A DNA stretch of 64,000 bases from positions 82,618 through 146,617 of IMG/VR virus record IMGVR_UViG_3300045131_002929; one strand, written 5' to 3'. The position numbers were made by a program, and so were the translations under genes. Numbering within the stretch: position 1 is the stretch's first letter; each line of letters begins with the position of its first letter. This DNA comes from a virus. Positions 5,557-45,203 of the stretch are shown piece by piece. Below the pieces are notes generated by a model that was not told the origin of the DNA, ran no database searches, and worked only from the letters and a program-made list of their open reading frames with translations.

Positions 5557-6181
5557 GAAATATAGAGACGCGGCTGAGGCTTTCGCTGATCCGGAGCTGT
5601 TCGGATCAGCGGCGCTCGTCCTCGCCTACGACATGCTCGGCGACTTCTTCGAATGGGAGCCTGAGACCATCGAGGCGGACCTCCGCGCCAACGGCGCGCG
5701 GCCGGGGCGCGGCTGCATGGACCGGCTTATGGCCGCTGCCACCGTGCGGTCGTCCGCCGCCTTCCACGAGAGTCTGGAGACCTTCATGGACGTCTGCCAC
5801 GCCTTGAACTTCGGCAGGGTGTCGGCTTCCGCGATGTCGAACGCGGACCTGGACGACGTGGCGTGGGGCTGCGTCGAGGCCCGCGTGATAGAAGGCACCG
5901 AGGCCTTCGACGCGAACGGGTTCGCGGACGACGTCAGACTGTACGCTGGGTTCCTGCTCGACAGGGCCGGCTTCGACAAGGCGCCGCGCATACTGGACTT
6001 CGCCGAGCTGCCGCAAGGCCGCGGGGCCGACCTGCCGCTGGACGGCACGCTGCTCGGCGTGTTCGCGTCGAACGTCGCGGAGATGACGGAGCAGCTGGAC
6101 GCCGGCGCGTCGGCCCGGCTGCAGAAGCTGTTCGAGCAGATGCGCCGGCTGCCTTTGCGCTCAGGCAAAGTGCCTAATTAA
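5549..6181 (+). CDS. Unknown 210-residue protein
   Basis: The start overlaps the previous gene by 8 bases. The protein is acidic and mostly helical, with no Cys-rich or nucleotide-binding motif. It ends convergently on the terminase gene; the two stop codons share TTAA (plus-strand TAA at 6179-6181, minus-strand TAA read from 6180-6178). Its role is unknown. Coupling to the preceding gene suggests that both products act together. Confidence 0.6.
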   Translation: MTEKYRDAAEAFADPELFGSAALVLAYDMLGDFFEWEPETIEADLRANGARPGRGCMDRLMAAATVRSSAAFHESLETFMDVCHALNFGRVSASAMSNADLDDVAWGCVEARVIEGTEAFDANGFADDVRLYAGFLLDRAGFDKAPRILDFAELPQGRGADLPLDGTLLGVFASNVAEMTEQLDAGASARLQKLFEQMRRLPLRSGKVPN

Positions 6182-8904
6182 GACCACTGGGCCTGCGCCG
6201 GATCCGTCAGATCCTCCACGTCCAGCGTGGGCGTCAAAGTGTCCACCAGGCTCGGGTACATGCCCCTTATGTGCCATATCGCCGAGCACGCGAAATTCAG
6301 AGCGTGGGCGAAATCGTCAGTGCAGCCGTCCTCCCTGACCATAAGCGTGTACGAGGACCCCCGCGGCGTCTCATGGGTCTCCTGCAGTATGGCCATGAGA
6401 TCCCTCAGAATGTCAGGGCATGTGTCGTACGCCGGCAGTAGGACCTTGCGCCGTTTGATCATCTCGAACAGGATCATCAGCGACCTGGTCTTGTCCATGT
6501 TGTAGCATGACCGGCCGCCCTGGCCTTTGTAGTAGGATATCACCTTGCGCGAGGAAGGCGAGAACACCAGCTGGAACGGGATGACCTGGCTTGCCGGGTA
6601 GCCGGACTGGATGAGGACCGCCTCGCGGATCATGCCCGCGCCGGAGAAGTCGTGGGCGATATAGGCCGCCTTGGACATCTGCGCCAGATCTATCACCCGC
6701 TGCGCCTCCTGCTCCGGCTTCATGCCCATAGGCAGCCGCTCCGAGTACATGCAGATCAAGTCGTCGTTCGGCGGCCTTATGCCGACCAGCGAGACGGCCG
6801 TCGTGGACTCACCCGAGGACCCGAACCCGCTCCAGTCGACACCCATGACGACCGGCCCCATGCACTTCAGATGATCGCCGAGCGCTGAAAGCGTGTTCGG
6901 CTTGCCGTGCGACGCGGCCCTTATGTCCTCTTCCGTGAAAGGCTTGGCGCCCTCGTCGCAAGGCTCGCCGAGGATCTCATTGTTGAACTTGGCCTTGCTG
7001 TAGGCGCGCGGGCCCTCCATCTTGCCGAGCAGATCCTTCCACTTCACCTTGCTCCAGCAGTGGATCGGATGCACCGCCTGCGGCACGTGGTACCCCTCGC
7101 AGACGCCGCGCAGCCGCGGCCGGGCGTGGACGAAGAAGCCCTTGCGGACGTCGAGGTCGGAGCCGCACTTCGCGCAGCAGCAGGTCTCCTTGCCTATCAT
7201 GCGCTCTAGGTCGTGCGCCAGGGAAGCCACGTTCTCCTTGCCGCAGCCGCAGGGGGTCACCCATTCCGCCATGGAGGAAGATTTGAAGAGTTTGGACAGC
7301 GTGTTGGAGTTGGTCAGCGGCGTGCCCGAGAACTGCAGGAAGCCGGCCGTGTCCTCCTGGGCCGACGTGCACTCCTCGATGACGGGCAGGAATTCCTCGT
7401 TGATGTCCTGGGCCTCGTCCACGGCCACCTTGGCCACCGCGAAGCCGCGGAGCCGATCGGGGTCGAGGAAGGCGTACGAGAAGTTCAGCGTGGAGCCGTT
7501 CGCCAGCACCTTCTCATAGATGGACTTCTCGCGGCCCTTGTCGACGAGGGCGCGGGCCGTGTCGGAGCTGGACAGCAGGACGTCCACGTATTTCGTGGAG
7601 AACCGCTTGGCCTGCTCGTAGCGGGGCTGCACGAAAAGAGTGTGGAAGTAAGGAGTGACCGCGCCTTGTATAACTCCTTGACTGGCGAGGCTTAGTGAGT
7701 TATGGCTGACTATTCCGTCTAGGATGAAATTATGATGAGTGTCGACTTCTATGTCCAGTGTAAGCGCTGCCGGTATTGGTTTTATGCTTACTATCTCGTC
7801 CCATCTCACGTCCCCGAACGCCGCGCCTCTTATCTTGCCGGCAGATTCCGGCAGCGGCGGGAATGGTTTGCCTGGTACCTGTAAATAGGATTTGAATAGC
7901 TCCAGCCCCCTTCGCGTCTCTACTCTAACGACGTAAGAATCTAAGCACCTTTTACCATTGCGCGATGTCTTCCGCCTGGTTATGGAGGAAGGTATTCCGA
8001 ATTTAATCAGTAAAGACCTCACGCCCATGGCAAGTTTTCTTGACGCGGAGCTGTAGGAGCACTCCACGGCGCCTCGCGGCGCGTGCGCGCCTATATGGCC
8101 ATCCGTCGCCCACAGCCTTGTGAGAAATAAAACGGTGTCCTCTCTGTTCAGATCAAACGCCCATTCAGGTATGAACTTGGTGTCGGAATAACAACCGAGC
8201 AGCCCGTCCGCCTTCAAGTACTCTACGAAAATAGAATGCCGAAAAAGCCTGACGTGCTTCGCCGTCGTGCCGTATTTGCCGGACACTTCCCCGGCATTCT
8301 CACCCACTAAATCTATAAACTCGTCGAGAGCCTCTCCCGGGCAGGCTGTGAAGACGACGCGGTCTCGATGCGCCATGGACCCGTCGCCTATCAAGTACGC
8401 GGTGACGGCGATTCTAGCCCTGGTCTCTACCCTGCTGGAGAAAGACCCGTGCCTCGCCAGCGACGCCAAACGACTGCCTACCTCCAACTTGGACGCCGCT
8501 TCATACCCGGAATACGTCAACAGCCTGTGGTTCGGCGTGACCGAGAAAGCGGACCCCATACGAGTCTCTATCCGGAGCAAAGGCTGCGTTCCGTTGTCGA
8601 AGATATTGAGTATCCTCTGGGAGTCGGCCTTGAATTCAGGGTCGACGCATGAGACCTCATCACCAACCTTCAGCTCGAACGCTTTTTTATACAAACCATT
8701 GGACAAACGTACTAACTCGTTGATTTCAAGACATTTCCCCATTTGACGTCCGCACATATAGATAAGACGTTTCGGCTGCTCCAATCTGAAGAAAGGCTCG
8801 AACATGAAATGCCGCTCGAGCGTGAGCGATTTGCCGTTCAGTTTGAATAGCCTTAGAAGCGGCACGAGATTGTCCAGTTTCACTTTCGGCTCTTCAGCCA
8901 TCAT
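6178..8904 (-). CDS. terL: Terminase large subunit with intein
   Basis: This 908-codon gene encodes the ATPase/nuclease motor that packages phage DNA through the portal. The Walker A motif GRQMGK-S is interrupted after Lys57 by a 345-residue intein. Once the intein is removed, the protein is about 563 residues, normal for the family. Downstream of the intein I see Walker B with VAVDEAQDIN (the DEAQD acidic pair), a coupling segment FSGTP, a Cys-containing insertion (CGCGKE...CCCAKCG), and the RNase H-like nuclease start VMGVDWSG. The start overlaps the end of the upstream radical SAM gene by 11 bases and has an AGGTG site, so the two are co-transcribed. The Cys cluster looks like a zinc ribbon and is unusual for a terminase. 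Confidence 0.93.
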   Translation of the reverse strand: MMAEEPKVKLDNLVPLLRLFKLNGKSLTLERHFMFEPFFRLEQPKRLIYMCGRQMGKCLEINELVRLSNGLYKKAFELKVGDEVSCVDPEFKADSQRILNIFDNGTQPLLRIETRMGSAFSVTPNHRLLTYSGYEAASKLEVGSRLASLARHGSFSSRVETRARIAVTAYLIGDGSMAHRDRVVFTACPGEALDEFIDLVGENAGEVSGKYGTTAKHVRLFRHSIFVEYLKADGLLGCYSDTKFIPEWAFDLNREDTVLFLTRLWATDGHIGAHAPRGAVECSYSSASRKLAMGVRSLLIKFGIPSSITRRKTSRNGKRCLDSYVVRVETRRGLELFKSYLQVPGKPFPPLPESAGKIRGAAFGDVRWDEIVSIKPIPAALTLDIEVDTHHNFILDGIVSHNSLSLASQGVIQGAVTPYFHTLFVQPRYEQAKRFSTKYVDVLLSSSDTARALVDKGREKSIYEKVLANGSTLNFSYAFLDPDRLRGFAVAKVAVDEAQDINEEFLPVIEECTSAQEDTAGFLQFSGTPLTNSNTLSKLFKSSSMAEWVTPCGCGKENVASLAHDLERMIGKETCCCAKCGSDLDVRKGFFVHARPRLRGVCEGYHVPQAVHPIHCWSKVKWKDLLGKMEGPRAYSKAKFNNEILGEPCDEGAKPFTEEDIRAASHGKPNTLSALGDHLKCMGPVVMGVDWSGFGSSGESTTAVSLVGIRPPNDDLICMYSERLPMGMKPEQEAQRVIDLAQMSKAAYIAHDFSGAGMIREAVLIQSGYPASQVIPFQLVFSPSSRKVISYYKGQGGRSCYNMDKTRSLMILFEMIKRRKVLLPAYDTCPDILRDLMAILQETHETPRGSSYTLMVREDGCTDDFAHALNFACSAIWHIRGMYPSLVDTLTPTLDVEDLTDPAQAQWS
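7699..8733 (-). other. Intein in terminase Walker A, with LAGLIDADG domain
   Basis: A 345-residue in-frame insertion covers residues 58-402 of the terminase. It starts with Cys (CLEINELVRL), has a block-B-like SVTPNHRLL, two LAGLIDADG-type helices (near AYLIGDGSM and LTRLWATDG), and ends in the classic VSHN followed by Ser as the +1 residue. Inteins splice themselves out post-translationally, and the endonuclease domain mobilises the coding sequence. Splicing restores GRQMGK-S. The DNA is noticeably richer in A/T than the flanking terminase sequence, which fits recent acquisition. The motifs look intact, so I expect it to be active. Confidence 0.93.
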
Positions 8905-38285: not shown

Positions 38286-41200
38286 ATGGCGGAACCCAAG
38301 CAAGAGCTGCCCGGGCTTGTCGGCCTGAACGACTACGACGCCCGCCGCAAGCTCATATTCGACTACGCGCTCGAGGGCGTCAAGACCAAATTCCCGGTGG
38401 AGAACACCCAGGTCAGACTGAAGGTCGACAACCTGGCGTACGACGACGATAAGAATTTCACGCCGATGGACCAGAAAGAGGCGCTGCTCAGCGGCGGCTC
38501 GCTGGGGCGCAAGCTGAAGGGCAACTGGGTTCTCGAGGATCTGAAGACCGGCGAAGTGCTGGGCCGGACCTCCAAGAAGACCATAGCCAACATCCCATGG
38601 CTCACCGACCGCGGAACTTTCATACGCAACGGCTCCGAGTCGAGCATCGTCAACCAGATGCGGCTGGTGCCCGGCGTCTTCGTCAAGAACACGGAGGACG
38701 GCAGGGTGGAGACCCATGTGAACGTCAAGCCCGGCACAGGCCATATGTTCAAAGTGTCGATGGACCCGGCCGATCCAGTGTTCGAGGTGATGGTCAAAGG
38801 CCGTAAGATCAAGATGTACCCGCTGCTCAAGGCGCTGGGGGTGCAGGACGCCGACATGGAGGCCGCGTGGGGCACCGAGATCCTCGACAAGAACCGCAAG
38901 CGCGACGACACGCGGTCGGCGGTGTCCGCCGCGCAGACGTTCGGCGCTTTCCGCAGGATCAACAAAACGGCGGACGAGGCCCCGAAGCCGCCGGCGCCGG
39001 AGCAGCCGGAGCTCGGCATAGAGGACGTGGCCGCCGCCTTTCAGAAGATGGAGCTCGACCCTGAGTCGGTCAGCTCCACTCTCGGCAAACCCTACGCCAA
39101 CGTGTCGCCGGCGCTGCTGCTCGACGCCACGAAGAAGATGATCCTGCTCAACAGGGGCATGGCCGAGGCCGACGACCGCGACTCGCTGGAATTCCAGCGG
39201 GTACACATGGCGCATGACTTCATCAAGGAGCGGATCGTCAAGGATTCCGGCGGCATGATCTCCAAGATGTTGTGGAAGGCCACCGCGAAGCGGTCGCCGG
39301 ACGCCATACCGGGCGGTGCGCTGGACAAGCATGTCGACGCCCTCTTCAACTCCGGTGGGCTCACCCAGTACGTCGAGGAGATCAACCCGCTGGATCCCTA
39401 CGACCAGGCGCAGCGGCTGACTCGGCTCGGCGAGGGCGCGCTGGGCGACGCCGTGCCCGACGAGGCGCGCGCAGTGCAGCCCACCTTCCGCGGCTACGTG
39501 GATCCGATACGCAGCCCGCAGAGCTCGGCGGTAGGCCTGGACATGCGCATGGCCCACGGCGTGAAGGTCGGAGCCGACGGCCTGCTGTACAGGGAGATGG
39601 TCAACGCCAAGACGGGCGCCGTGGAGTGGGTCAGCTCGACCAAGGCGGCGCGTTCCGTCATAGGCTTTCCGGAGGCCCTTAAAAGCAAAGACGACTATGT
39701 CCCGGCCACGGTCAAGGCCGAGGGCCTGCAGTATGTGCATAAGGGCACGGTGGACTACGTGATGCGGAGCCCCGGCGACCTTTTCTCGACAATAAGCAAT
39801 CTAGTGCCGATGGTGTCCGGGACGAAAGGCCAGCGGCTGCTCATGGGCGCCAGCTACCACCTGAGCGCGCTGCCGCTGCTGCACCGGGAGGCGCCGCTGG
39901 TCAGATCGGCGCTGCCCGACGGCTCGGATTCGCACAAGGCGCTGGCGCCTTACGCCGGCGTGGTCAGGGCGTCCGAGCCCGGCTTCGTGGAGAGCGTGGG
40001 CAAGGAGTCCATAAAAATCAAAGGCAACGACGGCAAGGTCAAAGAATACCCGCTGTACCACAACTTCCCTTTCGCCCGCAAATCCAGCATGTCCAACTCG
40101 GCGAGCGTGGAGAAGGGCCAGGCCGTCAAGACCGGCGACCTGCTGGCCACGAGCAACTTCTCCGACAAGAAGGGCGAGGTGGCCCTGGGTTTGAATCTGA
40201 GATGCGCGTACATGCCTTACAAAGGCTACCTGCACGAGGACGCCATAGTAGTCTCCGAGTCGGCGGCTAAAAAGCTCACGTCCGAGATGATGACGTCCGT
40301 CAAGATGCGCGACTCCGAGGGCGTGGAGCCTGGCCTGGCTTCGCACATGTCCAGCTTCCCCTCGGCGTTCAACGAGGCGCAGAGGCAGACCATAGGTCCC
40401 GACGGGCTGGTGAAGGTCGGCACCGTCGTCAGGCCGGGCGACCCACTGATCCTGGCCGTGAAGCGGCAGGCGCCGACGGTCGGCTCCATGGGGCGCAGGC
40501 TGACCACCGACCACGCCGTGACATGGGACCACCATGACGCCGGCGTCGTCACGGACTCCCGCAAGACCAAGGAGGGATGGCGCGTGCAGGTACGGGCCAA
40601 CTCCGCCGCGCAGCCGGGCGACAAACTTTGCTATTCGGACGACACCGAGATGCTCACGTCGCGGGGATGGAAGCGCGTCTCCAGCATTGACACTGCCGAC
40701 TATCTGGCTTCCAGGACCGAGGCCGGCGAGCTGGAATACGTGCAGCCGATGGCTATAGTGGACTACGAGTACGAAGGGCCGATGCACCTGGTGGAGACGA
40801 CGCAGGTGTCGCTGATGGTCACGCCCGAGCACAGCCACCTGGCCAAGCGGCGCGGCGCGGACGCTTTCGAGCTCATCCCGGCGGCCGAGCTGTTCGGAAC
40901 CAGATACAGGCTCAAGAAGGACGCCAAATGGAAAGGGTCTTCGCCTGAGTACGTGGACATGCCCGCCTACACGAGAAAAGCAGGCCAGGGCGGCGCGGGC
41001 GAATTGCTCGTGAAGGGCCGCAGGCTGAGTGTGGACGCCTATATGTTCCTACTAGGAGCCTACCTTTCAGAGGGTAACTGCTTCGCCTACGACGGCAACT
41101 ACGGCATAGAGATAACGCAGATCACCGAGCCCAACCGGAGCGACATGCTCGCCAAGCTGAGGGAGTTGGGGATCAAATTCAACGAGGTTAACAATAAGAC

Positions 41201-44200
41201 GAAGGTACGGCTGTACGGGAAGGACCTGGCGCTGCACTTCGAGCAGTTCGGCCGCTCGCACGAGAAGTTCATACCCGACTGGGTCTTCGACTGCGCCAAG
41301 CAGGACCTGGAAACGCTTTATGAGTGGCTGATGTGGGTCGACGGATGCCGCGTATCTACAAGCCACTCGTACTGCACGACATCCGAAAGACTGGCAGGCG
41401 ACATCCAGCGGCTCTGCCTGCACATAGGCCTGGCCGGCACGTTGAAGCGCAGAGACGCGACAGTGGGCGAGATCAAAGGTAAAACTTATGCTCTCAGGCC
41501 GCGGTACGACATCTCGATATACAGACAGAAGCTGGAGCCCGAGATCAACCACGGGCACTGCAAGCGCCAGAAAGGCCAGCGCGAGGAGTGGGCGGCCTAC
41601 TCGGGCCGCGTGTACTGCCCATCACTGCCGAGAAACCACACCGTGTATGTGCGGCGCAACGGCAAGACCTGCTGGTCGGGCAACTGCGGCAGGCACGGAA
41701 ATAAAGGTGTCATAGGGCTCATACTCCCGGACGAGCAGATGCCGAAGGACGCGCAAGGCAGGCCGCTGGAGGTTCTGCTCAACCCCTACGGCGTATCCGG
41801 CCGGACGAATTCCGCGCAGATGATAGAGGCCGCGCTGGGCAAGGTCGCGGCCAAGACGGGCAGGCCCTACGTCATGCCGCTGTTCGGCGACGATCCGGAC
41901 GGCTCGCTCATCAGTTTCGCCAAGGCCGAGCTGGCCAAGGCCGGCCTGCGGGACAAGGAGGACGTGTTCGACCCTTCGCTGAACAAGAATTTGAAAGACG
42001 TGTTCGTCGGCAGCCTTTACATGCACAAACTGCAGCATACGGCCGAGGCCAAGGCTGGCGGGCGGTCGTTCGGCGGATACACCCAGGACAAGCTGCCTTC
42101 CACTGGCGGGCATGACGGTGGTAAGCGTATTGGTAGTATGGAATGCGGGGCAATGTTCTCGCATGGCGCCATGGAGAATCTGAAGGACATGAAGCTGATC
42201 AAAGGCCAGGAGAACTACGACTACTGGCGCGACGTCAAGCTAGGCCGGACGCCGGTCATGCCGCGCGGCAGCTTCCTGTATGACAAATTCAGGGCGCAGA
42301 TGCGGTCGGCCGGCATTAACCTGGAGGACCGCGGCGCGAAGACGCATATATTCGCGATGACGAACGACCAGGCCAAAGAGCTTACGCAGGGCCGCGAGGT
42401 CCAGAACACGGACACCTACGACGCCAAGAAGTTCACGCCGATAAAAGGCGGGATGTTCGACGAGGCGCTGACCGGCGGCGCTGAAGGCAATCTGTTCGCC
42501 ATGGTCAAGCTGGACGAGCCGGTTCTGAACCCGATCATGGAGGATTCGGTACGGCGCATACTCGGCGTCACCATCAAGGATCTGGAGGCGCTGGCCTCCG
42601 GCGACAAGCCCTACAAGGACATGTACGGCGGCAAAGCCTTGAAAGCCAGGCTCGCGGACGTCAATCTGGACATGGAGCTGCTGAAGGCCCGCAACGCTGC
42701 GAAAGGCTCTTCCGGCGCCACGCGCGACGCGGCCGTCAAGAAGATAAGAGCCATAATGTCGATGAAGGAGCATGGCGTTCGGCCGCAGGATTTCATGATG
42801 GACGCCGTGCCCGTGCTGCCGCCGTCGTTCCGGCCGATAACCACGATGGACGGCGAGAACAAGGCCGCCGACGCCAACTACATGTACCGCGAGCTCATGT
42901 TCGCCAGGAACGACCTGCGCGACGCGGCCGCCATACTGCCCGACAAGGATCTGACCGACGCCCGCCGCAAGGTGATAGGGTCGTACAAGTCGCTCGTGGG
43001 CCTGCAGGACACCGACAACGCGGAGCTGTCCGACAAGAAGGTCGGCGGCATACTGGCCACCGTCTTCGGCAAGAGCTCGCCCAAAGTCGGCCAATTCCAC
43101 CGGCGCATGATAGGCATGTCGCAGGATCTCACCACCCGCGCGCCGATCATACCGGATCCGACGCTCCGGGTGGACCAGGTCGGCCTGCCTTTCAACCGCG
43201 CGTGGGAGCTCTACGAGCCTTTCGTCGTCAGGCGGCTCGTGCGCGGCGGCATGCCGGCCACGCAGGCCGCGAAGGCCGTGGCCGACCGCACGGGCCAGGC
43301 CGAGGCCGCCCTGCAGGAATGCGTGCGCGAGCGGCCGGTCATGATAAACAGGGCGCCCACCATGCACAAGCACAGCATAGTGGGCATGTGGCCGCTGCTG
43401 GTCAAGGGCGACTCCATGAAGGTGCCCAACGGAATCCTGGCCCCTATGGGGGCTGACTATGACGGCAACTGCGCCGACTTTAACACAGAACTTAAATTAA
43501 GATTATCAAAGTCCGCGCTTGAGACCTTCGCCGGTCTAGGGTACATTGTCGGTGTCGATGGGACACTAACAAAGGAGACCTGCATGCAGACGGCGGACAC
43601 AAAGGTGGCGATCAAGGCCGAAGGCGTGGTAGCTACCACGCGTATAGGGGAATTCCCCCGCGCTGGCGTACCTGGCAAGGACAGGAACGGGGCGGACGTG
43701 TACGAGGTTCCGGCAGGCGTCGAGGTTCTGACTCTCGACCCGGCTACGCTGAATCCTATATTCTCCGAGGTGACCACGTTCACGGAGGAGAAAGACTGCC
43801 CGTGCGTCGAAGTCGCAACCGACACGCAGTGCGTCATAGTCAGCGACAACGAGTCGCTGTGCGTGTTCGACCACGCCTCGGGCGCGCTCTCGAAGATGGC
43901 GCCGAAGTCTTCCGTGGGCATGTTCTCGCCTTCCGTGCGGGCCATGACCACCGGCGAGGACAAGCACTCCAGGGATCTAGGGTGGTGGGTAGGCGCCTTC
44001 GTGTCGGACGGATGGGTGTCTGGAAATTATGTCGGATACGCCAAGTCCGAGAAGGTTAAAAGGGACGAGTTCGTGCGCATCACCAGGGAGCTGGTGCACG
44101 ACAACTTCAACAGCCGAGAGCACGCCGCCTCCAAGGGCGTCGATAAACTCGGCGACAGCGTTAAACTGCATTTGAACGGCCGCGAGCTGGTCGACGCCGT

Positions 44201-45203
44201 GCGTGGCATGGGTTTCGTGGAGGACGGGCCGGATAGACAGGCTCTCCGCAAGCGCATACCGCCGAAAATGATCTTCGAGGGTTCGGACGAGTTCGCCTGG
44301 GGGTTGTTGTCCGGATTGCTGGACGGGGACGGTACGGTGGCCGTCAACATGCACACCGGCAAGCCCAGGTACACGCTGCGCTTCAGCACCTCGAGCAAGA
44401 GCCTGGTGGAGGGGGTGCGCGCGCTTTGCTGGCGCCTCGGGCTGCGCTGCTGCGTCAGCACCACCCCGCCCAGGGGGCATAGCAAGGAGGCGTACGTCGT
44501 GCTTCCCTCCGTGGTCGACGTACGGCCGCACGCCGGCAAATTAAGCTGCGTCGGGGCTTTAGAGCGCGAGAGGGTGGCAGGCCTGGCGGCGGCCACACTG
44601 CGCCAGGACATCAGGGACTACATACCGCTCACGCTCGATGAGGCGAAGAACTTGAAAATCAGGGCAAAGGATCTGGCCGAGAAGGCGGTGGTGTCGGCGC
44701 TTGATAAAAGGAAAGCCACGCCTTGGTTGAACAGGCAGTATCTAGCCAGGTTGATCGCCGGCGACTTCGCGCTTGAGAAGGCCTTCGAGGCCCGCATGAA
44801 TCCGCGGATACGCTGGGAGCACATAGAACGAGTGACAGACGCCGGCCGACGGGACGTGTACGACTTCGGCGTTCCCGGCTCCAAGGTGTTCGCCGTCGAC
44901 AAGGGCCTGATCATCTGGGACACGCTCACCATCCATGTGCCAGTGTCTGACCTGGCCGTCAAAGAGACCGTGCGCAAGATGATGCCGAACAGGATGCTGC
45001 TGTCCGGGCGCGATTTCAAGCTCACGTACAAGACAGGCCACGAGTACGTGCACGGGGCCTGGCTGGCCACGAAGCCGCCGAAGGAAGGCAAGGCCGTCGA
45101 GTTCGACACCGCCGCCGACGCGAAGGCGGCTTTCCGCGACGGCAAGATAGATGTGGACACGCCTATAAGAATTCGAAGCAGGGACATAGGGGGTGCCCGG
45201 TGA
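38286..45203 (+). CDS. Multisubunit-type RNA polymerase, beta fused to N-terminal beta-prime, two inteins
   Basis: The 2305-codon frame encodes one chain. The beta part includes LHEDAIVVSES near residue 650 and GDKL-CGRHGNKGVIG, split by intein 1. The beta-prime part includes the G-RRMIGMSQDLTTRAP region, INRAPTMHKHSIVGMWPLLV near 1690, and GADYDG, the counterpart of NADFDGD that holds the catalytic Mg ion, split by intein 2. Removal of both inteins leaves about 1469 residues. The chain ends at a point like E. coli beta-prime ~540, so bridge helix and trigger loop must be encoded elsewhere. Placement among virion genes suggests a packaged polymerase for early transcription, as in phiKZ-like phages. 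The stop overlaps the next GTG. Confidence 0.88.
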   Translation: MAEPKQELPGLVGLNDYDARRKLIFDYALEGVKTKFPVENTQVRLKVDNLAYDDDKNFTPMDQKEALLSGGSLGRKLKGNWVLEDLKTGEVLGRTSKKTIANIPWLTDRGTFIRNGSESSIVNQMRLVPGVFVKNTEDGRVETHVNVKPGTGHMFKVSMDPADPVFEVMVKGRKIKMYPLLKALGVQDADMEAAWGTEILDKNRKRDDTRSAVSAAQTFGAFRRINKTADEAPKPPAPEQPELGIEDVAAAFQKMELDPESVSSTLGKPYANVSPALLLDATKKMILLNRGMAEADDRDSLEFQRVHMAHDFIKERIVKDSGGMISKMLWKATAKRSPDAIPGGALDKHVDALFNSGGLTQYVEEINPLDPYDQAQRLTRLGEGALGDAVPDEARAVQPTFRGYVDPIRSPQSSAVGLDMRMAHGVKVGADGLLYREMVNAKTGAVEWVSSTKAARSVIGFPEALKSKDDYVPATVKAEGLQYVHKGTVDYVMRSPGDLFSTISNLVPMVSGTKGQRLLMGASYHLSALPLLHREAPLVRSALPDGSDSHKALAPYAGVVRASEPGFVESVGKESIKIKGNDGKVKEYPLYHNFPFARKSSMSNSASVEKGQAVKTGDLLATSNFSDKKGEVALGLNLRCAYMPYKGYLHEDAIVVSESAAKKLTSEMMTSVKMRDSEGVEPGLASHMSSFPSAFNEAQRQTIGPDGLVKVGTVVRPGDPLILAVKRQAPTVGSMGRRLTTDHAVTWDHHDAGVVTDSRKTKEGWRVQVRANSAAQPGDKLCYSDDTEMLTSRGWKRVSSIDTADYLASRTEAGELEYVQPMAIVDYEYEGPMHLVETTQVSLMVTPEHSHLAKRRGADAFELIPAAELFGTRYRLKKDAKWKGSSPEYVDMPAYTRKAGQGGAGELLVKGRRLSVDAYMFLLGAYLSEGNCFAYDGNYGIEITQITEPNRSDMLAKLRELGIKFNEVNNKTKVRLYGKDLALHFEQFGRSHEKFIPDWVFDCAKQDLETLYEWLMWVDGCRVSTSHSYCTTSERLAGDIQRLCLHIGLAGTLKRRDATVGEIKGKTYALRPRYDISIYRQKLEPEINHGHCKRQKGQREEWAAYSGRVYCPSLPRNHTVYVRRNGKTCWSGNCGRHGNKGVIGLILPDEQMPKDAQGRPLEVLLNPYGVSGRTNSAQMIEAALGKVAAKTGRPYVMPLFGDDPDGSLISFAKAELAKAGLRDKEDVFDPSLNKNLKDVFVGSLYMHKLQHTAEAKAGGRSFGGYTQDKLPSTGGHDGGKRIGSMECGAMFSHGAMENLKDMKLIKGQENYDYWRDVKLGRTPVMPRGSFLYDKFRAQMRSAGINLEDRGAKTHIFAMTNDQAKELTQGREVQNTDTYDAKKFTPIKGGMFDEALTGGAEGNLFAMVKLDEPVLNPIMEDSVRRILGVTIKDLEALASGDKPYKDMYGGKALKARLADVNLDMELLKARNAAKGSSGATRDAAVKKIRAIMSMKEHGVRPQDFMMDAVPVLPPSFRPITTMDGENKAADANYMYRELMFARNDLRDAAAILPDKDLTDARRKVIGSYKSLVGLQDTDNAELSDKKVGGILATVFGKSSPKVGQFHRRMIGMSQDLTTRAPIIPDPTLRVDQVGLPFNRAWELYEPFVVRRLVRGGMPATQAAKAVADRTGQAEAALQECVRERPVMINRAPTMHKHSIVGMWPLLVKGDSMKVPNGILAPMGADYDGNCADFNTELKLRLSKSALETFAGLGYIVGVDGTLTKETCMQTADTKVAIKAEGVVATTRIGEFPRAGVPGKDRNGADVYEVPAGVEVLTLDPATLNPIFSEVTTFTEEKDCPCVEVATDTQCVIVSDNESLCVFDHASGALSKMAPKSSVGMFSPSVRAMTTGEDKHSRDLGWWVGAFVSDGWVSGNYVGYAKSEKVKRDEFVRITRELVHDNFNSREHAASKGVDKLGDSVKLHLNGRELVDAVRGMGFVEDGPDRQALRKRIPPKMIFEGSDEFAWGLLSGLLDGDGTVAVNMHTGKPRYTLRFSTSSKSLVEGVRALCWRLGLRCCVSTTPPRGHSKEAYVVLPSVVDVRPHAGKLSCVGALERERVAGLAAATLRQDIRDYIPLTLDEAKNLKIRAKDLAEKAVVSALDKRKATPWLNRQYLARLIAGDFALEKAFEARMNPRIRWEHIERVTDAGRRDVYDFGVPGSKVFAVDKGLIIWDTLTIHVPVSDLAVKETVRKMMPNRMLLSGRDFKLTYKTGHEYVHGAWLATKPPKEGKAVEFDTAADAKAAFRDGKIDVDTPIRIRSRDIGGAR
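40629..41684 (+). other. Intein 1 in RNA polymerase beta (GDKL/CGRHGNKG site)
   Basis: Residues 782-1133 (352 aa). It begins with Cys (CYSDDTEMLTSRGW), has block-B-like MVTPEHSHL, LAGLIDADG-type helices near FLLGAYLSEGN and LYEWLMWVDG, and ends GKTCWSGN followed by the +1 Cys of CGRHGNKG. The penultimate residue is Gly rather than the usual His. Splicing restores a universally conserved beta motif. Judged by motifs it should be active and mobile. Confidence 0.9.
43470..44921 (+). other. Intein 2 in RNA polymerase beta-prime catalytic motif, atypical junction
   Basis: Residues 1729-2212 (484 aa). It begins with Cys directly after GADYDGN, includes LAGLIDADG-like helices near VGAFVSDGW and LLSGLLDGDG, and ends with an F-block DVYDFGVPGSKVFAVDKG followed by LIIWD and the +1 residue Thr. 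Thus His-Asn of ordinary inteins is replaced by Trp-Asp. A second Cys-start-like segment (CMQTADTKVAI) lies about 46 residues into the element, so the exact N-boundary is not certain. The first 40 bases are strikingly AT-rich. See findings for the consequence at the catalytic Asp triad. Confidence 0.8.

Follow-up and report, generated by a model that had tools for sequence, protein, structure and literature searches.

The 64,000-nucleotide stretch analysed here (the window) is the final part of a 146,617-base virus record. On its plus strand lies an open reading frame (ORF) that runs from an ATG start to a stop codon with no internal stops. Within this single chain, Pfam detects Rpb2_6 (E 1e-42), Rpb1_1 (2e-9), Rpb1_2 (1e-9) and LAGLIDADG_3 (9e-13). 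The Rpb2 domain comes first and is followed by Rpb1 domains 1 and 2, while the LAGLIDADG domain lies within the second of two inserts. A profile of the exteins, built from this chain and two relatives, was compared with the PDB and matched cellular β (best E 2.8e-114) and cellular β′ (E 2.5e-64) far above chance. Both barrel regions can be aligned to those of cellular β and β′, as in multi-subunit, bacterial-like RNA polymerases (RNAPs). The ORF fuses the whole of β and the first part of β′ in one chain (β–β′N), with the junction near position 42330. The chain ends at about E. coli β′ residue 537, an endpoint that follows from an alignment extending to E. coli residue 506 at profile position 1494 of 1525. 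Zinc-binding site 1 (CxC...CxxC) is absent near the start of β′ in extein 2, where the sequence reads GGMFDEALTGGAEGNLFAMV; among the relatives described below, this region contains CxC...CxxC in 1 of 147.

Table 1 Features of the RNAP genes and their putative partner. Plain coordinates are positions in the window; those with G000:C1 are positions in the whole record.
Feature	Position	Strand	Description
β–β′N fusion precursor ORF	38286..45203	+	2305 aa; exteins 1469 aa with both inteins out
Extein 1	38286..40628	+	β, N terminus to GDKL
Intein 1	40629..41684 (aa 782-1133)	+	352 aa; Cys1, block B TPEH, SGN end, +1 Cys
Extein 2	41685..43469	+	C-terminal β, short β–β′ linker, N-terminal β′ to GADYDGN
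AAC codon (Asn)	43467..43469	+	at the third metal-binding Asp of DxDGD
Intein 2	43470..44921 (aa 1729-2212)	+	484 aa; Cys1, LAGLIDADG domain
Extein 3 and stop codon	44922..45203	+	final 93 aa of β′N (TLTIHVPVS...)
σ-like protein	G000:C1:72064-72861 (L284)	+	265 aa
β′C precursor ORF	G000:C1:21534-24533	-	999 aa; bridge helix and trigger loop
Intein 3	within the β′C ORF	-	Cys1, TAEH, SN end, +1 Ser; bridge helix cut at GYL/.../SKQLKHAAHREVV

Both inteins interrupt catalytic motifs. Intein 1 sits in the β motif GDKL/CGRHGNKG, and its tblastn match is an insert in the thymidylate synthase of Corynebacterium phage P1201. Intein 2 lies between GADYDGN/CADFNTELK and GLIIWD/TLTIHVP in the DPBB (DxDGD) motif of β′. 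Of the class 1 traits it keeps C1 and T+1, but it has SDNE in place of TxxH in block B and ends in ...IIWD in place of HN, with Trp as the penultimate residue and Asp as the last. Class 3 splicing was rejected for this intein, as position 4 of block F is Asp and not Cys (VYDFGV). The fold and the endonuclease domain identify it as a LAGLIDADG intein (Pfam; Foldseek E 2e-19 to the TliVMA intein). Its structure model has a mean pLDDT of 69.6 with the first ~70 residues poorly modelled, and supports an intein fold, not the junction geometry. Searches with intein 2 alone, by patterns and tblastn, found no relatives, and sequence searches found no solved structure; its relatives were obtained through extein and intein-alignment searches. 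A full alignment of the inteins at this site yielded no stretch conserved enough for scanning. Most of them begin with an N-terminal extension of ~40-95 residues ahead of the usual intein start (window 43470-43590 in intein 2), whose strand-helix pattern resembles that of the extein following the motif. Another strand that resembles block A (CMQTADTKV) lies further in and was considered as the true start of intein 2; this was not adopted, since in L093 and L191 the inteins of this site have no such extension and begin immediately at Ser.

The rest of β′ is encoded elsewhere in the record. A search with Rpb1 domain 5 found a single gene on the minus strand, at G000:C1 ~22.3-24.0 kb, whose ORF matches Rpb1_5, LAGLIDADG_3 and Hint. 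With intein 3 removed, this chain (β′C) is 606 aa long, carries the bridge helix and trigger loop motifs GYLSKQLKHAAHREVV and TQAVISSKHTGG, and matches cellular β′ from about E. coli residue 552 on, the start being extrapolated. The two chains thus cover consecutive parts of β′, separated by ~15 residues. The second zinc site is present, and its residues C228/C283/C290/C293 are invariant across β′C. The initial annotation of this locus had proposed a single-chain β/β′N fusion that stops at about E. coli β′ residue 540, two inteins in GDKL/CGRHGNKG and GADYDG, and a missing half encoded elsewhere in the genome, all of which agree with the present results; it contained neither the third intein nor the two features discussed below, the Asn that stands in for the third catalytic Asp and an intein with a terminal Asp. 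It also held that a full-length separate β′ would refute its reading; neither such a gene nor a second β domain was found in the 146.6-kb record, which is probably incomplete since the records of relatives span 185-229 kb. A second copy of DPBB-A was considered and dropped, as the record contains only one, along with one β. No match to α was found in the record. The β′C gene lies ~97 kb from β–β′N on the opposite strand, whereas in relatives it follows β–β′N after a few kb on the same strand, so an assembly error or a rearrangement is possible. Close relatives of β–β′N and of β′C occur together in the same contigs (L093 and L094).

The same plan was recovered by tblastn in cultured phage isolates, namely Salmonella phage Arash and Vibrio phages D69, D148 and D181. 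In pattern scans of IMG/VR, the whole chain recovered 103 relatives and the β′ DPBB region 410; the best 80 of the 103 and the best 80 of the 410 were carried into the analysis, and further sets were added. Across the IMG/VR contigs and these isolates, the polymerase is encoded as a full β–β′ chain, as β–β′N plus β′C, or as three chains. Before duplicates were removed, 118 loci had β–β′N, 92 a single β–β′ chain (~2000-2100 aa, longer with inteins) and 18 a separate frame for β′N; a few of these 18 may be genes split by an intein or an endonuclease. Complete single-chain β–β′ proteins of ~2000-2100 aa that can be aligned to cellular RNAP occur in phage contigs L020, L041, L065, L175 and others. 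In a FastTree phylogeny of 178 DPBB-region sequences, β–β′N forms approximately one clade (111 tips, support 0.99) in which the three-chain forms are nested. Five architecture changes are enough on this tree, which was rooted by midpoint only and does not give their direction. Most β–β′N members have β′C on the same locus, usually a few kb downstream and on the same strand. All ten relatives' records of 185-229 kb contain one β′C and one β, the latter spread over two frames in one of them, and no α was found in these ten. The two-chain plan is conserved, and the initial view that fused chains are rare does not hold given hundreds of relatives with the fusion.

Comparison with known enzymes places this RNAP nearest to those of Arash (gp206 and gp216, OQ632216) and D69/D148/D181, which consist of a ~1525-aa β–β′N and a ~606-aa β′C. 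Identity to the source record is 31% for β–β′N and 25% for β′C. The two genes of these isolates lie no more than about 5 kb apart on one strand; inteins are absent from Arash and D69, and in Vibrio phage D181 the gene is interrupted by a homing endonuclease gene. Their motif reads AADYDGD with the third Asp in place, in contrast to GADYDGN in the precursor of the source record. The annotation of the Arash pair goes no further than ‘RNA polymerase subunit beta’, and the D69 proteins are listed as hypothetical. The mReC phage RNAPs, from IMG/VR contigs, likewise have β and β′ that are readily aligned to the cellular enzymes (PMC7481178). They are characterised by contigs that encode both β and β′ with NADxDGD; the source record encodes both subunits, but its precursor motif is GADYDGN. 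The main text of that paper mentions fusion for crAssphage only and does not mention inteins (PMC7481178). The position of the break in β′ has precedents as well. It follows the DPBB in the phiKZ vRNAP and nvRNAP and in cyanobacteria (PMC7598289), and in AR9 the DYDGD motif is close to the C-terminal end of β′N (PMC9209446); the initial annotation had taken the break for one unlike phiKZ-like split points, and this has to be revised. The phiKZ and AR9 enzymes share with the one described here the absence of α and the split just after the DPBB, but they also divide β, consist of 4-5 chains and come as two enzymes in each phage. In the source record β is unbroken and joined to β′N, and there is one β in the record and in each of the 10 relatives' records, which may be partial. 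In cyanobacteria, γ aligns to β′N and β′ to β′C, whereas β is a separate chain and γ extends ~65 residues further. The crAss-like RNAP also has β and β′ parts in one chain, but it and YonO are too divergent for COG models, while the enzyme described here matches cellular profiles strongly. Inteins in the RNAPs of eukaryotes and viruses are located close to the active centre, at the sites of highest conservation (PMC1635734). Those are in genes of the second-largest subunit, and the paper describes none at β′ DxDGD where the third Asp is Asn. A literature search with a scope mostly outside subscription journals found no description of β–β′N fusions in phages, which is weak evidence of novelty.

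The strong match to cellular β/β′ profiles could suggest a fragment of cellular rpoBC or an artefact instead of a phage enzyme. However, the window carries a terminase, a DnaB-like helicase, a UvsX-like recombinase and a phage DNA polymerase, a gene content that rules out cellular contamination, and the fused plan is common to phage isolates and hundreds of viral contigs. We therefore regard a cellular origin as extremely improbable. The large terminase ORF (window 6178-8904, minus strand, 908 aa) matches terminases only over residues 420-885. Its residues 56-308 weakly match phrog_30356, a family also matched by the polymerase intein region, and thus this ORF probably carries an intein as well.

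The record also encodes a σ-like protein. This protein matches phrog_351 (‘RNA polymerase sigma factor’) with E 1.7e-15, Sigma70_r3 barely above the cut-off and, weakly, Sigma70_r4 at G000:C1:72748-72819. The gene is present in this record and in several relatives, and its 266-aa frame is 33-35% identical to ORFs in three relatives. This protein probably guides the core to phage promoters.

We then propose a two-chain, phage-encoded RNAP core of bacterial type that lacks α and has β–β′N as its larger chain, a reading to which we give a probability of roughly 0.8. The two inteins would be excised from the 2305-aa precursor after translation to give the mature 1469-aa β–β′N, and removal of the bridge-helix intein from the 999-aa precursor would leave the ~606-aa β′C. 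We infer that the two chains assemble into a catalytic core covering β and β′ nearly without a gap, which the σ-like protein would take to phage promoters. Several observations speak against this proposal: Asn at the third catalytic Asp is expected to harm catalysis, intein 2 has no block B His, penultimate His or terminal Asn, and β′C lies far from β–β′N on the opposite strand of a probably incomplete record.

The precursor reads DYDGN before intein 2, where RNAPs have the third catalytic Asp. DGD is found at this site in all 146 distinct intein-free relatives; in the motif counts, the single ‘H’ is a motif elsewhere in L264 and the extra ‘N’ is the source record itself. Twenty distinct sequences, the source record among them, were found to carry an intein at the DPBB site; 12 of these inteins end in Asn, seven end in Asp and one is cut off at a contig end. 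The Asp-ended inteins terminate in WD (source record), YD (L191), FD (L028) or QD (L102, L178, L182 and L252), and all seven have Cys or Ser at position 1. They are preceded by Asn in the source record and L191 and by Asp in the other five, whereas all 13 remaining DPBB-site inteins are preceded by Asp. Asn at the third Asp thus occurs with 2 of the 7 Asp-ended inteins versus 0 of 159 other sequences (hypergeometric p 0.0015, shared ancestry being ignored). Every DPBB-site intein with a visible C terminus is followed by Thr at +1, versus 43 of 147 intein-free relatives. The source record and L191 are far apart in the host-protein tree, while their inteins cluster together in a weakly supported tree; support in the intein tree is too weak to tell a single from a repeated origin of the Asp termini.

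One possible explanation is that intein 2 undergoes ordinary class 1 splicing at N/C and D/T, which would give a mature DxDGN enzyme with Asn as third ligand, perhaps slower or using another metal. The conserved Cys or Ser at position 1 and Thr at +1 favour this ordinary register and hence a DGN product. Asp-terminated inteins are moreover accepted, Asp cyclization being assumed for them ‘although other mechanisms are possible’ (PMC4031507). We consider ordinary splicing a serious candidate that still falls short of probable: it leaves the confinement of Asn to Asp-terminated inteins unexplained, and it sits poorly with an Asp that is kept in every intein-free relative and ahead of every other intein. 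That confinement, seen in two distant phages with AAC as the Asn codon in both, argues for a splicing product to which the terminal Asp is important. The third Asp might accordingly be restored in a non-standard way, either through a junction shifted by one residue (DG/N...W/D), which would yield GADYDGDTLTIHV, the exact family consensus, or through conversion of Asn to Asp during or after splicing. However, the shift has no known chemistry, with Asn at position 1 and Asp at +1, and the conserved Cys/Ser and Thr point to the ordinary register. There are also only two cases, which may not be independent since their inteins group in a weakly supported tree. Restoration of either kind appears rather doubtful.

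It is likewise tempting to speculate that the active site is at once blocked by the intein and completed by it, with the third catalytic Asp supplied by splicing as the intein's own terminal Asp or by Asn-to-Asp conversion, but we hold this to be unlikely. The Asn could also be a sequence or assembly error, or mark a copy that is inactive or decaying. One G-to-A change would be enough, the record is a metagenome contig, and it is the single copy of this phage known here. An error or a decaying copy of this kind seems improbable to us, since the distant contig L191 has the same change with the same intein class, and the 2305-aa ORF has no stop and otherwise keeps its conserved motifs.

Together, our results suggest that an α-less, bacterial-like RNAP in one or two chains is the norm in a large group of mostly uncultured phages, which comprises related one-, two- and three-chain forms and cultured members open to testing. 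The inteins at the catalytic triad pose a testable question, namely whether an RNAP works with DxDGN or splicing supplies the missing Asp. The outcome would be new in both cases, to RNAP catalysis or to protein splicing.

Inteins with further sites and features occur among the relatives. The protein of L056 has an intein in the trigger loop (TQLSMN/C...HN/SFHTGG). One subfamily of DPBB-site inteins (L199, L119, L204, L210, L211, L213-L218 and L220) has DDD[PE]RAVYG at block B, the C terminus LSN/T and neither the block B His nor the penultimate His. Cys or Ser is absent from position 1 in 11 of its 12 members, which have Q, K, E, D or F instead. The lack of a first nucleophile and the Ser at the penultimate position make the subfamily class 2-like, but its +1 residue is Thr, and judging from these motifs it is possibly a new splicing variant.
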